Below are positions 13,735-62,299 of a DNA stretch of 64,000 nt, piece after piece (within the stretch, counting starts at the first letter, position 1; every line of letters begins with the position of its first letter). Under the pieces are notes generated by a model. It was not told where the DNA came from. It did no database searches and worked only from the letters and a program-made list of their open reading frames with translations. The stretch is from Leptotrichia hofstadii (lineage in GTDB: Bacteria; Fusobacteriota; Fusobacteriia; Fusobacteriales; Leptotrichiaceae): positions 2,108,001 to 2,172,000 of the forward strand of contig NZ_AP019823.1 in the NCBI RefSeq assembly GCF_007990525.1, in the 5' to 3' direction. A program made the translations under genes and the position numbers.

Positions 13735-13835
13735 TTTTTCCTCTTTTCTTTCCTATTTTTAAATCTTATCCTTATAGTTTTTCAATAAAATACTCTATAA
13801 TTTTTCTTTTTTATTTGTATTAAAGTTTATTTTAA

Positions 13836-14326
13836 GCAGAGGTATCAGTCGCCATACCTCTGCACTCCGGCTTCTCGAATTTCAATTTTACAGCAAAAGA
13901 CAAAACTCGCTTTTAACAAAAGTTATTTTCATCTCATAAAGTTATTATTAATTTAAGTACATTAGAAAAGCTCAAACAAGTTGTCTTTTACTGAAAAATT
14001 AAAATCTCTGAAATTTATAACAATTTTTTAATTTTTTGACATTTATTTTAATCAAATTAATTATTATAATCAAACTAAAAACGTCGTGATTTTTTTGAAA
14101 TGAAATTGACTGTCTGAGCTTTTTCAAAATTTTTAGACTATAATTGGTTTAAGGAATTTTAATAACCTTTGTTAAAAAAAAAGCGAGTTTCAATTTCGTA
14201 GTAATCCAGGTTTATTCAAATAACAAATGTTTAGACTACTTTCCCAAATAAAATTTGGGAATATTTCAAAAAAAAATACTTAGACAAGCCGGGGATGCAA
14301 GGGGGGATGGCCATTGTTCCCCCTTG
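13836..14326. repeat. family 1 dispersed element, copy A, with hairpin ends
   Basis: This fills the gene-less gap 13735-14488 and has no convincing ORF. The left end is a perfect 10-bp hairpin, GCAGAGGTAT (13836-13845), loop CAGTCGCC, ATACCTCTGC (13854-13863). The right end is a G-rich hairpin, CAAGGGGG (14298-14305) with CCCCCTTG (14319-14326), around loop GGCCATTG. Read on the minus strand it aligns along its whole length with copy B at 61878-62223: both contain GTCTAAG just inside the end, AAACTCGC, GCTCARAC and the core TTTCATTT followed by AAAAAATCACGAC. The rest of the gap is AT-rich spacer and the ppc promoter. Confidence 0.8.
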
Positions 14327-14348
14327 TCTTGTCTTATTTTGTTAAAAT

Positions 14349-17392: not shown

Positions 17393-17450
17393 GTATTCAA
17401 GATAAGAGAGAAAAGTAAAAAAATAAATGAATATTAAAGGAGAAAGAAAG

Positions 17451-18020
17451 ATGAAAAAGAAAATTTTAAGTATTACATTATTAGGAATTATGGTATTAGG
17501 AGTATCAGTAGCTGTAAACGCAAAGAGCAGAAATAAATACAGTAGAAATGTTTCTTCAAATAACTACATTGGAGTAAACAGGGCAATGAACATTGCATTG
17601 AAAAAAGTACCGGGAGCAAGCAATTCTCACGTGAAAAAAATCAATTTAGACAGAGAAAATGGAATAATGGTTTATGAAGGGGAAATTTATTATAATGGAC
17701 AGGAATATGAATTTGATATTGATGCTGTAACTGGTGACATTGTAAAATGGAAAGCTGAGACAAAATCAACCCCTTCTTACAATAATAGAAGCGTGAATGC
17801 TACACAGCAAGTAACGCCAGAAAGAGCAAAATCAATCGCATTAGCACAAGTTTCAGGAGCAAACCAAAGCCATGTTGGAAAAGTTGACCTTGATTTAGAT
17901 AACGGAACACCAGTTTATGAAATTGAAATTTTTTACAACAATTCAAAATATGAATTTGACATTGATGCAACAACTGGTGAAATTATAGGAACAGAAGTAA
18001 AGAACTACAAAAACAATTAA
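17451..18020 (+). CDS. secreted protein with two PepSY domains
   Basis: The 189-residue product begins with a signal peptide (MKKKILSITLLGIMVLGVSV, then AVNAKS as a likely cleavage site), followed by two PepSY repeats: NRAMNIALKKVPGA...EFDIDAVTGDIVKW and ERAKSIALAQVSGA...EFDIDATTGEIIGT. PepSY domains are small periplasmic or membrane-attached modules thought to inhibit peptidases or sense envelope state. The ATG at 17451 is chosen over one 24 bases upstream because AAAGGAGAAAGAAAG lies right before it. The following gene is a shorter paralog, and a two-component system comes next. Confidence 0.85.
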   Translation: MKKKILSITLLGIMVLGVSVAVNAKSRNKYSRNVSSNNYIGVNRAMNIALKKVPGASNSHVKKINLDRENGIMVYEGEIYYNGQEYEFDIDAVTGDIVKWKAETKSTPSYNNRSVNATQQVTPERAKSIALAQVSGANQSHVGKVDLDLDNGTPVYEIEIFYNNSKYEFDIDATTGEIIGTEVKNYKNN

Positions 18021-18094
18021 GTTATAAGCCATATAGCTTAAAAAATACAAAAAAATTTATAAATAGAAAAAATTGAAATCAAAGGAGAAAAATT

Positions 18095-18412
18095 ATGAAA
18101 AAGAAAATTTTAAGTATCGCATTATTAGGAATTATGGTATTAGGAGTATCAGTGACTGCAAACGCAAAAAGTAAACACAAATATAACAGAAACGTTTCTT
18201 CAAACAGCTATATTGGAGTAAGCAGGGCAATGAATATTGCATTGAAAAAAGTGCCAGGAGCGAACAGTTCTCACGTAAAAGAAATCCATTTGGATAGAGA
18301 AAATGGAAGAATGGTTTATGAAGGAGAAATTTATTATAACGGATGGGAATACGAATTTGATATTGACGCAGTAACTGGTGCAATTGTAAAATGGAAAGTA
18401 GATAGAGATTAA
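18095..18412 (+). CDS. secreted single-PepSY protein, paralog of the preceding gene
   Basis: The 105 residues are nearly identical to the N-terminal half of the preceding protein: the same signal peptide (MKKKILSIALLGIMVLGVSV), the same linker with SKHKYNRNVSSN, and one PepSY domain ending EFDIDAVTGAIVKWK, after which the protein stops. This is a recent tandem duplication that kept only one repeat. A good ribosome binding site (AAAGGAGAAAAATT) precedes the ATG. It should be secreted to the periplasm like its neighbour. A terminator follows at 18439. Confidence 0.85.
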   Translation: MKKKILSIALLGIMVLGVSVTANAKSKHKYNRNVSSNSYIGVSRAMNIALKKVPGANSSHVKEIHLDRENGRMVYEGEIYYNGWEYEFDIDAVTGAIVKWKVDRD

Positions 18413-25038: not shown

Positions 25039-25114
25039 TTCTTTCACTCCTTTTTCACAATTTTCTATAAACAAAAAAACAACCTCACATAAAAGTTGTT
25101 GCCTTTAATTTTTT

Positions 25115-25742
25115 ATTCCAATCCTTGTTTTAATGGATTCACTATTCTTACTTCAGTTTATTTTCTCATAAAGACATAGACATATACGTTTCAATCCTTG
25201 TTTTAATGGATTCACTATTCTTACTGCCTCAGTTCGCAATGTTACATATCTACAATATAAGGTTTCAATCCTTGTTTTAATGGATTCACTATTCTTACAT
25301 TCAATATACATATAGGAGAATTTCCTATATGTAAAGTTTCAATCCTTGTTTTAATGGATTCACTATTCTTACCTTTAATGACTATTTGAGTTATACTAAC
25401 TACCCAGATAAAGTTTCAATCCTTGTTTTAATGGATTCACTATTCTTACTAGGAGGTAAATGTGGCTAACGTAAGTGAAGCATATGTTTCAATCCTTGTT
25501 TTAATGGATTCACTATTCTTACATGTAATACTTTACTGTCTGAATGGAATTATCTAATGTCTCAATCCTTGTTCTAATGGATTCACTATTCTTACAAATG
25601 GAAAGAAATGTAAAAAATGAAATTTTAAGAAGTCTCAATCCTTGTTCTAATGGATTCACTATTCTTACTAATGAAAGGATAAACAATGAGAAACATGTTG
25701 GAAAGGTCTCAATCCTTGTTCTAATGGATTCACTATTCTTAC
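25115..25742 (-). CRISPR. CRISPR array, 9 repeats of 37 bp and 8 spacers, no adjacent cas genes
   Basis: Repeats start at 25115, 25188, 25262, 25336, 25413, 25486, 25559, 25632 and 25706; spacers are 36-40 bp. On the plus strand repeats begin GTTTCAATCC and end ATTCTTAC, so on the minus strand they end in GGATTGAAAC, the usual 3' end (5' crRNA handle) of type I-B and type III systems. This sets transcription leftward with the leader at the right. Repeat 1 (ATTCCAATCC start) is degenerate, as expected for the trailer end. The three leader-proximal repeats (25559, 25632, 25706) share two changes, C at positions 3 and 16. The cas genes must lie elsewhere if the array is active. Confidence 0.97.
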
Positions 25743-25980
25743 CCGTACTTTTGAGAAAACCCTTTATTTATCAATGTTACAAGAATTTTTTCAGACATTA
25801 AAATCATATTTTTTTGATTAATTTTTGTCATTTTTTGCTGTTTTTTTAGCATTTTCCGTAACTCCTAACTAGCATGTTTAGTGGCTTTAAGCGAATTTTT
25901 CTCTGCATTTTTAATTTTTAGTAGTGGCAGGAATTTTTTCTACAAACTTATTGTACCATATTTTTTTGATTTTTCAAAGT
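25743..25980 (-). promoter_or_regulatory. CRISPR leader with promoter
   Basis: The AT-rich stretch right of the last repeat fits a leader. On the minus strand TTGAAA (25977-25972) and TACAAT (25955-25950), 16 bp apart, form a good promoter about 210 bp before the first repeat. No ORF overlaps it. Direction agrees with the repeat-end evidence. Confidence 0.6.
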
Positions 25981-26011
25981 TTTTTAGAAAAATTTCCCCA
26001 TTCAAATATTT

Positions 26012-26136
26012 TATACTAAACTCCATTTAAAAAATAGAAATAAAATTCTACAGCAATTAATTTGGTAGTCTTGTAAAAAAGACTTTAATTACATGAATTT
26101 TCTGATTTCTACTATTCAAATGAGGGCTTAGTATTA
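26012..26136 (-). repeat. family 3 TIR element, short copy
   Basis: A 125-bp element runs from TATACTAAACTCC to GGGCTTAGTATTA. Its ends are inverted repeats (TACTAAAC..CATTT and AAATG..GCTTAGTA), and the inner part read on the minus strand has ATCAGAAAATTCATGTAATT followed by AAGTCTTTTTTACAAG, as in the copies at 38663 and 56261. It codes for nothing. It lies between the CRISPR leader and the EF-G-like gene. Confidence 0.75.
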
Positions 26137-36310: not shown

Positions 36311-36631
36311 TATACTAAACCCCATTTAAACAGCGAATTTATTAAAAACTTTTCTAAAAAAGGATAAAAAACTAATATTTTTAATTAAAATATAATTTTC
36401 ATTTTTTAAACAGAGTCTACCATAAACTAATCCGTCGGAGCATTTTTCTGTGCTGGCAAAACTGTTTGAGCATAGCGAGTTTTTTGTCAGTGCAGAAAAA
36501 TGTCGTAGACTAGCCATAGGTTGTAGGATTTGCGGCAATGAGCAATCCTACAAAAACATAGTAATTAGTTGAATGGCTATGAAATAGCTATTATAAAAAT
36601 TTATTCCTATTTTCAAAAGAGTTTAGTATTA
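36311..36631. repeat. family 3 TIR element, copy with family 1 sequence inside
   Basis: Ends TATACTAAACCCCATTT (36311) and CAAAAGAGTTTAGTATTA (to 36631) match family 3. The interior (about 36413-36552) is unlike other copies and carries family 1 features: GTTTGAGC followed by GCGAGTTT (36460-36481), GTAGACTAGCC, and a hairpin GTAGGATT (36523-36530) / AATCCTAC (36544-36551) with loop core GGCAATG. A second imperfect inverted repeat is built from CATTTTTCTG and CAGAAAAATG. This occupies most of the 36182-36820 gap; 36182-36310 is plain AT-rich sequence. No supported gene. Confidence 0.6.
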
Positions 36632-38662: not shown

Positions 38663-38836
38663 TAATACTATTTCCCGTTTAAAGAGCAGAAATCAAAAAT
38701 TGATGAAATTAAAGCCTTTTTACGCGGAAAAATCTTTAAGATGGATACTTAAAAATTAAATTTGATTTTTTTACAAAGATGTCAAATTAATTATTATAGA
38801 ATTTTACTTCTATTTTTTAACTGGGATTTAGTATAA
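38663..38836 (+). repeat. family 3 TIR element, intact 174-bp copy
   Basis: The element runs from TAATACTATTTCCCGTTT to GGGATTTAGTATAA. The left part has AGAAATCAAAAATTGATG and the right part AATTAATTATTATAGAATTT, as in copies 26012 and 56261. It has the undisturbed site TTAATTATTATAGAA into which family 2 has inserted in the 56261 copy. No ORF. It sits immediately upstream of metF. Confidence 0.75.
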
Positions 38837-50408: not shown

Positions 50409-50518
50409 TTTTTTATCCTTTCTTTTTTTTCTATCTAAATATTTTTCATAAATTTATTCTTCAATTATTTAGATTACTGATTTTTATTTAGTCATTAAAA
50501 TTTACTTTTATTAAAAAT

Positions 50519-50640
50519 TTTGCGTCAAGTGGGGTAGTTCGTAGAACGTTTCGCCATTATCTCTAAGTAGCAGTCAGTTAAATATGTTAAAATAACTATG
50601 TTTTGCGAAAGAGAGCATGGCGTTTGATGCCCTTACGTTA
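50519..50640. repeat. family 1 element, shortened copy C
   Basis: The right end matches family 1: GAGCAT (50613-50618), loop GGCGTTTG, ATGCCC (50627-50632), then CTTACGTTA as at 62219. The left part begins TTTTGCGTCAAGTGGGGT, close to TTTTGCGGTAAGCGGGGT of copy B. An inverted motif, TTTCGCCAT and ATGGCGTTT, links the two halves. It lies between secD and ruvX, and no gene is present in this gap. Confidence 0.55.
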
Positions 50641-50665
50641 AAAGAAATTATTATATAAAATAATT

Positions 50666-56260: not shown

Positions 56261-56597
56261 TTATACTATTTCCCATTTAAAAGAAATCAGAAATTCATGT
56301 AATTAAATCCCTTTTTACAAGACTGTACTGTTTACAGCCTATGTAACTGCAAAACATCCTTTAATTAAATTTAGTCATTAAGTATTTATCTTAAAAATTA
56401 GATTTGATTTTTTTAATAAGGCTGTCAAATTAATTATTAGACGTGTTCGATAACTTAAGTTTTTTTATTTCCACAAGGGGTCAAGACCCCTTGCTTCAGA
56501 ATATTTGTTTTATTAAACTATAAGCACATATAGTTAGTTGTCGAACAGGCCTATTATAGAATTTTATTGCTATTTTTCAAATGGGGGTTTAGTATTA
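56261..56597 (+). repeat. family 3 TIR element interrupted by a family 2 element
   Basis: Outer ends are TTATACTATTTCCCATTT and CAAATGGGGGTTTAGTATTA, with internal AGAAATCAGAAATTCATG as in the other family 3 copies. The inner family 2 copy lies at 56440-56551. It fills most of the gene-less gap 56204-56636; there is no ORF of note. The last 30 bp toward the LptC/A-like gene hold a possible weak hairpin (AAAAGTGAG..CCCACTTT). Confidence 0.75.
56440..56551. mobile_element. family 2 TIR element inserted in family 3, with target duplication
   Basis: A 112-bp unit with ends GACGTGTTCGATAACT and AGTTGTCGAACAGGCC (13 of 16 positions inverted). The duplicated host sequence TATTA lies at 56435-56439 and 56552-56556. 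An internal hairpin AAGGGGTC/GACCCCTT is present. The empty site is visible in the copy at 38663. It encodes no protein, so it must have used a transposase supplied from elsewhere. Confidence 0.75.
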
Positions 56598-61877: not shown

Positions 61878-62223
61878 GTAAAGGGGATCAATCGCCATCC
61901 CCTTTACAATCCCCGCTCGTCTAAGCATTTTTTGAAAACAAAATCGAAACTCGCTACGTAAAAACTTCGCTCAAACAATCGATTTCATTTCCAAAAAATC
62001 ACGACAATTTTAATTTAGTTATAACAACTATTCTAATTAAAAGATTTTCGAGCAAAATTTCGTTAGAAGAAAAATAGCTGTTTGAGCTTTTGAAATATTT
62101 TTTAATTATACATATTTATTTAGATATAAAATAATTTTTGTTCAAAAGCGAGTTCTATTTTTCTTTTATAAGAAAGTTTTGCGGTAAGCGGGGTTGTAAG
62201 GGCATGGCGTCTGATGCCCTTAC
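61878..62223. repeat. family 1 dispersed element, copy B, with hairpin ends
   Basis: The left end is a perfect 11-bp hairpin: GTAAAGGGGAT (61878-61888), loop CAATCGCC, ATCCCCTTTAC (61897-61907). The right end is a perfect 10-bp hairpin: GTAAGGGCAT (62196-62205), loop GGCGTCTG, ATGCCCTTAC (62214-62223). Inside lie AAACTCGC and GCTCAAAC on the left and GTTTGAGC and AAAGCGAGTT on the right, a mirrored arrangement. It is homologous to copy A on the other strand. It occupies most of the gap 61695-62299; the flanks (61695-61877 and 62224-62299) are AT-rich. No supported ORF. Confidence 0.8.
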
Positions 62224-62299
62224 GTTAGAAAAGATTAAAATTATAAAAGAAAAAGCTATTATTAATAAAAATAATCTAAAATAAATATCAAAAATATAA

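Follow-up and report, generated by a model that had tools for sequence, protein, structure and literature searches.

Several described systems come close to the repeats analysed here. MITEs, for which we follow the definition used in PMC10969869 and PMC3049150, are short, AT-rich, intergenic elements with no reading frame, with inverted ends and a target duplication, and they occur in many copies. The BOX/SPRITE repeats of Streptococcus pneumoniae are modular, repeated and strongly folded when transcribed (PMC3049150); the word 'compensatory' is absent from that paper. By their description, BOX and RUP have terminal repeats that join the fold. Repeated hairpins in intergenic DNA are also found in REP/RAYT systems, and mitochondrial double-hairpin elements consist of hairpin pairs that vary in stem and keep their loops. 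IStrons, which combine a group I intron with an insertion sequence and are thus mobile DNA carrying structured RNA, have been reported in Fusobacteria including Leptotrichia (PMC4227781).

The repeats that we analysed, here called Family 1, lie in a window of 64,000 nucleotides from Leptotrichia hofstadii. Family 1 has the MITE traits listed above, but it carries strand-specific cassettes with covarying stems, and its cassette is found in two unrelated carriers, the TA-flanked Family 2 and a type with 10-bp duplications. It is modular, repeated and strongly folded like BOX/SPRITE, but its fold lies inside the ends. With REP/RAYT (Y1) it shares the intergenic hairpins, whereas the 10-bp duplications, the inverted repeats and the lack of a consistent Y1 gene set it apart. 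The likeness to IStrons holds if the cassette acts as RNA, as we assume, although the elements lack a transposase gene and match no intron in Rfam. The variable stems and kept loops resemble those of the mitochondrial elements, going by the general description of the latter. We suggest that Family 1 consists of MITEs with a strand-specific folded cassette, most likely an outward structured RNA, and that they would be moved by a DDE-type enzyme; we put the probability of this reading at about 50%. The initial annotation of the window, which had pointed to the hairpins, understated the scope of the finding, as the compensated hairpins belong to a mobile strand-specific cassette whose tip occurs in two phyla.

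The cassette is a folded stretch of about 120 nt that reads outward and is closed on its outer side by hairpin H. In all copies printed, the order in each half, from the centre outward, is a long hairpin, a CCCC/GGGG-type linker (GACNAGCC.GGGG) and hairpin H with its loop GGCGNNTG. The tip of the long hairpin (CTGTYTGAGC..GCGAGTTT) is invariant while the stems are exchanged between copies. The halves fall into at least four types (A, B, C and D), which differ in their long-hairpin stems and have this tip in common. Elements carry one cassette or two inverted cassettes, full copies being built of two inverted halves. The features found in the window are listed in Table 1. Its single D cassette has the long hairpin with the constant tip CTGTTTGAGCATAGCGAGTTT, followed by hairpin H.

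Table 1. Positions of Family 1 elements, their hairpins and Family-2 copies in the window.
Feature	Position	Strand	Description
Element E1	13836-14327		Two inverted half-cassettes; Family 1 of the initial annotation, two-ended
E1 left half, C type	13835-14005	-	Strand given is the folded strand
E1 right half, A type	14254-14327 (outer part)	+	Split by extra module
Hairpin H, E1 left half	13836-13863	-	Arms and loop GCAGAGGTAT-CAGTCGCC-ATACCTCTGC; - strand loop GGCGACTG
Hairpin H, E1 right half	14298-14327	+	CAAGGGGGGAT-GGCCATTG-TTCCCCCTTGT; loop GGCCATTG
Family-2 MITE-like copy	25998-26130		No cassette; direct reading
Family-2 MITE holding D cassette	36313-36628		TACTAAACCCCATTTAAA ... TTTAGTA, flanks ttta/ttaa
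Single D-type cassette	36434-36552	+	Best model hit, 116 bits
Hairpin H, single D cassette	36521-36552	+	TTGTAGGATT-TGCGGCAATGAGC-AATCCTACAA; loop TGCGGCAATGAGC
Family-2 MITE copy	38666-38833		No cassette
Decayed right-end remnant	50500-50650	+	Its hairpin 50612-50633 partly paired
Family-2 MITE copy with another palindromic insert	56264-56594		Insert at about 56440-56552
Element E2	61878-62223		Two inverted halves; cassette model 111 and 72 bits
E2 A-type half	61878-62005	-	Strand given is the folded strand
Hairpin H, E2 left half	61878-61907	-	GTAAAGGGGAT-CAATCGCC-ATCCCCTTTAC; - strand loop GGCGATTG
E2 B-type half	62050-62224	+	
Hairpin H, E2 right half	62196-62223	+	GTAAGGGCAT-GGCGTCTG-ATGCCCTTAC; loop GGCGTCTG

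In extended variants (L071, L074, L078, L103 and window positions 14120-14290), an extra module takes the place of one hairpin arm. This module, in which stems are exchanged as well, consists of a GTA-loop hairpin (GTGC-GTA-GCAC, GTTC-GTA-GAAC, ATTGC-GTA-GCAAT) and of a TTTCGCC/GCGAAA or CTTGCC/GCAAG helix. At one orthologous site (L080 in G000 and the region of G007:C1:1403000) one species has an A-type inner cassette and the other an inner cassette of a different type, which suggests that cassettes may have been exchanged. Upstream of A cassettes there is a TATAAT-like stretch, weak and in an AT-rich context, and no terminator-like T-run was found after hairpin H. The two loops are inverse complements, and we therefore considered that they might kiss within one transcript; the fourth base of the loop, however, shows no covariation between the two ends, and the idea was given up. 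Other repeats of the window include a CRISPR array (25099-25753) whose nine repeats match Rfam CRISPR-DR7 on the - strand, with few-base differences in the repeats at its high-coordinate end, and two 300-bp direct repeats (86%) within adjacent reading frames at 17444-18387.

The initial annotation named six hairpins at the ends of Family 1 and held that each of them stays paired. Direct reading of the sequence agrees with this for five, which are fully paired, four of them with folding z-scores of -3.7 to -5.8. The statement does not hold for the sixth (GAGCAT/ATGCCC), in which the inner four bases pair and, further outward, A.C mismatches alternate with pairs; it lies in a decayed remnant that scores 11.7 bits with the cassette model (E 0.73). 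The hairpins had also been taken for the ends of the elements, and this has to be corrected: wherever the ends could be fixed, in copies from G012 and G005, hairpin H is found about 90 bp inward of them. The loop word GGCGWYTG alone is not significant and not rare by itself, with 4 matches against 1.66 expected and 4 reached in 7 of 100 shuffles.

The compensation in the stems goes beyond chance. For hairpin H we chose 25 distinct sequences by their upstream flank, with pairing not required. In these, 93.2% of the cells are paired against 75.7% after shuffling (maximum 80.8%, 0/1000), and 46 cells are double-changed against 11.5 (maximum 22, 0/1000), in shuffles that ignore the relatedness of the copies. 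One stem column of a larger, less strictly chosen set has G-C, C-G, T-A and A-T 10-18 times each. For the whole cassette, RNAalifold predicts 35 pairs from an alignment of 23 cassettes of types A, B and D (A1), with double changes in 25 of them. This structure has 96.0% of its cells paired, as compared to 70.9% in shuffles that again ignore relatedness (0/500). Its covariation score of 0.715 compares with 0.09-0.19 for slid partners, and pairing falls to 40-56% when the partner is slid by one to three columns. The invariant columns of A1 belong mostly to the tip and the GGC loop, with few in the stems. The sole guard against relatedness is that separate cassette types agree with each other, as do separate columns.

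The fold furthermore has a preferred strand. Of 79 distinct long hairpins, 75 are more stable on the outward strand and none on the inward one, relatedness again being ignored; by type, these 75 comprise 30 of 31 A, 35 of 35 D and 9 of 12 B hairpins and one that is unclassified. On the outward strand of A1 there are 75 G.T cells against 5 A.C cells, in 13 against 4 columns (uncorrected for relatedness), and the excess is present in both inverted halves. A palindrome kept only as dsDNA would not be expected to show any preference of G.T over A.C, and the strand asymmetry speaks for selection acting on a single strand that folds, be it RNA or ssDNA. Such selection, with constant loops, was what the initial annotation had proposed, and the covariation and the strand-asymmetric excess of G.T uphold it. 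We rejected a single transcript that folds both halves: both inverted halves fold best on their outward strand, so one transcript cannot explain both and each half behaves as a unit of its own.

The genomic neighbourhood gives further indications. Beside tandem genes the folded strand is antisense in 28 cases and sense in 11 (p about 0.01, pooled and using simple open reading frames), and this excess lends no support to the idea that the fold acts within flanking mRNAs. Gaps between divergent genes, which is where promoters lie, hold 3 of 35 Fusobacteriota loci and 0 of 17 D cassettes; in the genome of L. hongkongensis (G007), by comparison, 58 of 398 gaps are of this kind. When the tip is compared with a K-turn, in which a bulge of three bases adjoins tandem G.A/A.G pairs, UGAGC..GCGAG permits tandem G.A, but RNAalifold has U32-A56 and Y33-G55 paired in their stead, and the bulge would be five bases.

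The ends of the elements are fixed by near-identical copies with differing flanks in G012 and G005, at about 468 bp. The inverted repeats typical of MITEs are found in the G012-type copies (GATGGTTTAAAAATTTTAGGGG.../...CTATTTTACTCTGTC) as well as in Family 2 (TACTAAACCCC), and of 20 end pairs in G012-type copies, 13 have a perfect 10-bp target duplication and one more agrees in 9 of 10 bases. One copy (L202) lies inside a Family-2 element and has its own duplication. In L. hongkongensis the D cassette occurs alone within Family-2 elements of about 340-400 bp that end in TACTAAACCCC...TTTAGTA, so the same cassette rides two different carriers. Family 2, whose flanks resemble TA or TTAA, seems to be a MITE in its own right. 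The other palindromic insert that is nested in a Family-2 MITE of the window reads TGTTCGATAAC ... GTTGTCGAACA, with AAGGGGTCAAGACCCCTTG inside, and a sequence resembling it adjoins the copy at G000 2081357 (L093). Around copies in the window's own genome we found no convincing 10-bp duplications, and the inverted terminal repeats of E1 and E2 were not located; as no duplication was found in this genome, E1 and E2 are placed among the MITEs by core homology only. An empty-site comparison with L. hongkongensis gave one clear absence (L066); the element concerned is composite and truncated and lacks a clean duplication.

Judging from the duplications and the inverted ends, the probable mover is a DDE-type enzyme. 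No transposase with matching ends was found among the ends listed in G012 and the G005 copy. A PF01609 transposase was rejected as a partner: it is absent from G012 and G007, and the flanks of the one full copy examined in G005, a 525-aa gene, have no matching ends. The open reading frames between distant Family-2 ends, as read from sequence, are ordinary genes and not transposases.

The initial annotation had asked for a covariance-model scan of the genome and of other Leptotrichiaceae, and had made its reading depend on further compensated copies genome-wide. Such copies are present, in the genome as well as throughout the genus. BLASTN against the window's own genome gave 78 and 75 pieces in about 48 places, and the family is present at the DNA level in 13 of 13 Leptotrichia genomes, with weak, single matches in 9 of 47 other genomes. 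Our covariance model R1 finds cassettes in all 13 Leptotrichia genomes, from 2 to at least 45 per genome and at least 45 in seven; its matches in other Fusobacteriota are weaker and repeated. At one locus (L084, G000:C1:1254950-1256028) a small module of two genes, resembling a RelB/RelE-type toxin-antitoxin pair, is tandemly duplicated, each unit with a Family-1 end.

The tip is found well beyond Leptotrichia. As a 21-nt pattern, CTGTYTGARCGNAGYGAGTTT is present in 31 of the 98 Fusobacteriota genomes and in 9 of the 398 Bacillota genomes, with as many as 39 copies, and a few viral contigs contain it too; the reversed pattern, used as a control, has no match in the same Fusobacteriota and Bacillota genomes. 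Inspection of R1 matches in other Fusobacteriota shows other stems around the tip, and its flanks differ yet pair, as in CCGCATCAA/TTGATGCGG (L317), GGGCAGA/TCTGCCC (L300) and AGATAAATTCGA/TCGAATTTATCT (L291). Over 101 distinct flank pairs from outside the main Leptotrichia set, about ten of which (L255-L266) are still Leptotrichia, 7.36 of 10 positions are Watson-Crick at one register, compared with 3.93 when permuted (maximum 4.4). The inner pair of the tip switches from GAGC/GCGAG to GAAC/GTGAG, both sides together. Beyond the main Leptotrichia set, the strand bias shrinks to 59 to 31. A literature search returned nothing describing the element or the tip. In Rfam, the window matches only CRISPR repeats, four loci gave nothing relevant at E<5, and the Bacillota loci contain no known RNA family above the gathering cut-off. 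In some Bacillota and Fusobacteriaceae (L320, L321, L300, L291) the tip hairpin lies within a longer palindrome with variable flanking stems and a second constant internal loop, GGCGTTAAGAA ... TTTTAGCC. Two of these loci (L320 1043-1249 and L321 1415-1620) have sub-threshold matches to the microRNA family MIR2670 (E 1e-5 to 2e-4); possibly a bacterial palindrome is behind that family, or long hairpins are alike by chance. As a tentative suggestion, the 21-nt tip with an arbitrary stem might be an undescribed structural signal of bacteria that a protein common to both phyla reads, as folded RNA or as ssDNA, and unrelated mobile repeats of Fusobacteriota and Bacillota might have taken it up as a shared address tag.

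In the reading that we prefer, Family 1 elements would be non-autonomous DNA elements, moved as dsDNA by a putative DDE-type transposase. Each cassette of about 120 nt would fold as a single strand, on the strand that runs from the centre to the element end. It would be transcribed outward into a structured RNA in which the tip and the GGCG loop are putative modules for protein binding. The stems would drift and be exchanged because they only need to pair, whereas the tip and the loop would stay constant because an assumed partner binds them. RNA over ssDNA and any benefit to the element or the host are likewise assumptions of this proposal.

A possible alternative, which we consider clearly less probable than the reading as a whole, is that the folded strand is ssDNA and that GNA-triloop mini-hairpins are recognised in replication, repair or transposition, with no RNA involved. 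The inner loop of the tip contains GCGNAGC, a motif in use in papers and known as an exceptionally stable ssDNA mini-hairpin, and the extra modules have GTA loops too. The outward strand has its 3' end at the element terminus, as does the strand that a DDE transposase transfers. DNA parameters likewise favour it (-23.2 against -18.2 and -22.4 against -19.1 for the other strand), and it is often antisense to its neighbours. But about 9% of the pairs in A1 are G.T, which is better tolerated in RNA, the tip loops include GNRA types common in RNA (for example GAAA and GTAA), cut-and-paste movement exposes no long single strand, and a Y1 gene (PF01797) is absent from three genomes, G007, G009 and G010. 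Given that the fold is real, the G.T tolerance, the GNRA-type loops and the TATAAT-like stretch before A cassettes lead us to lean towards RNA.

Template switching in imperfect palindromes is a known mutational route that could match the arms and keep the loop constant because it is not rewritten, in line with whole arms that differ between copies and with stems in discrete classes; it is unlikely here, as it predicts equal leftovers of G.T and A.C against the observed 75 to 5, and 75 to 0 by fold energy, and gives no reason for a 21-nt tip kept across two phyla. We find it improbable that these are ordinary MITE palindromes with a constant loop by shared ancestry: MITEs are as a rule rich in A and T and have strongly folding transcripts (PMC10969869; PMC3049150), so long inverted repeats would fold anyway, but the double changes are register-specific, the strands are asymmetric and the tip occurs outside these MITEs. 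That a Y1/HUH single-strand transposase of REP/RAYT or IS200/IS605-like kind recognises the hairpins and moves the elements, an idea raised in the initial annotation, is now very improbable. The hairpins are near the element ends and 10 of 13 Leptotrichia genomes have Y1 genes; however, the position of the hairpins inside the ends and the 10-bp duplications with inverted terminal repeats in G012 argue against it, and the three genomes that lack Y1 hold at least 45 cassettes each.

Folded repeats are common in bacteria, and stems that change freely around fixed loops provide direct evidence for structural selection. The strand of action can moreover be read from the balance of G.T and A.C. The recurring tip offers a bait for the protein that would read it, in culturable oral bacteria and in Bacillota.
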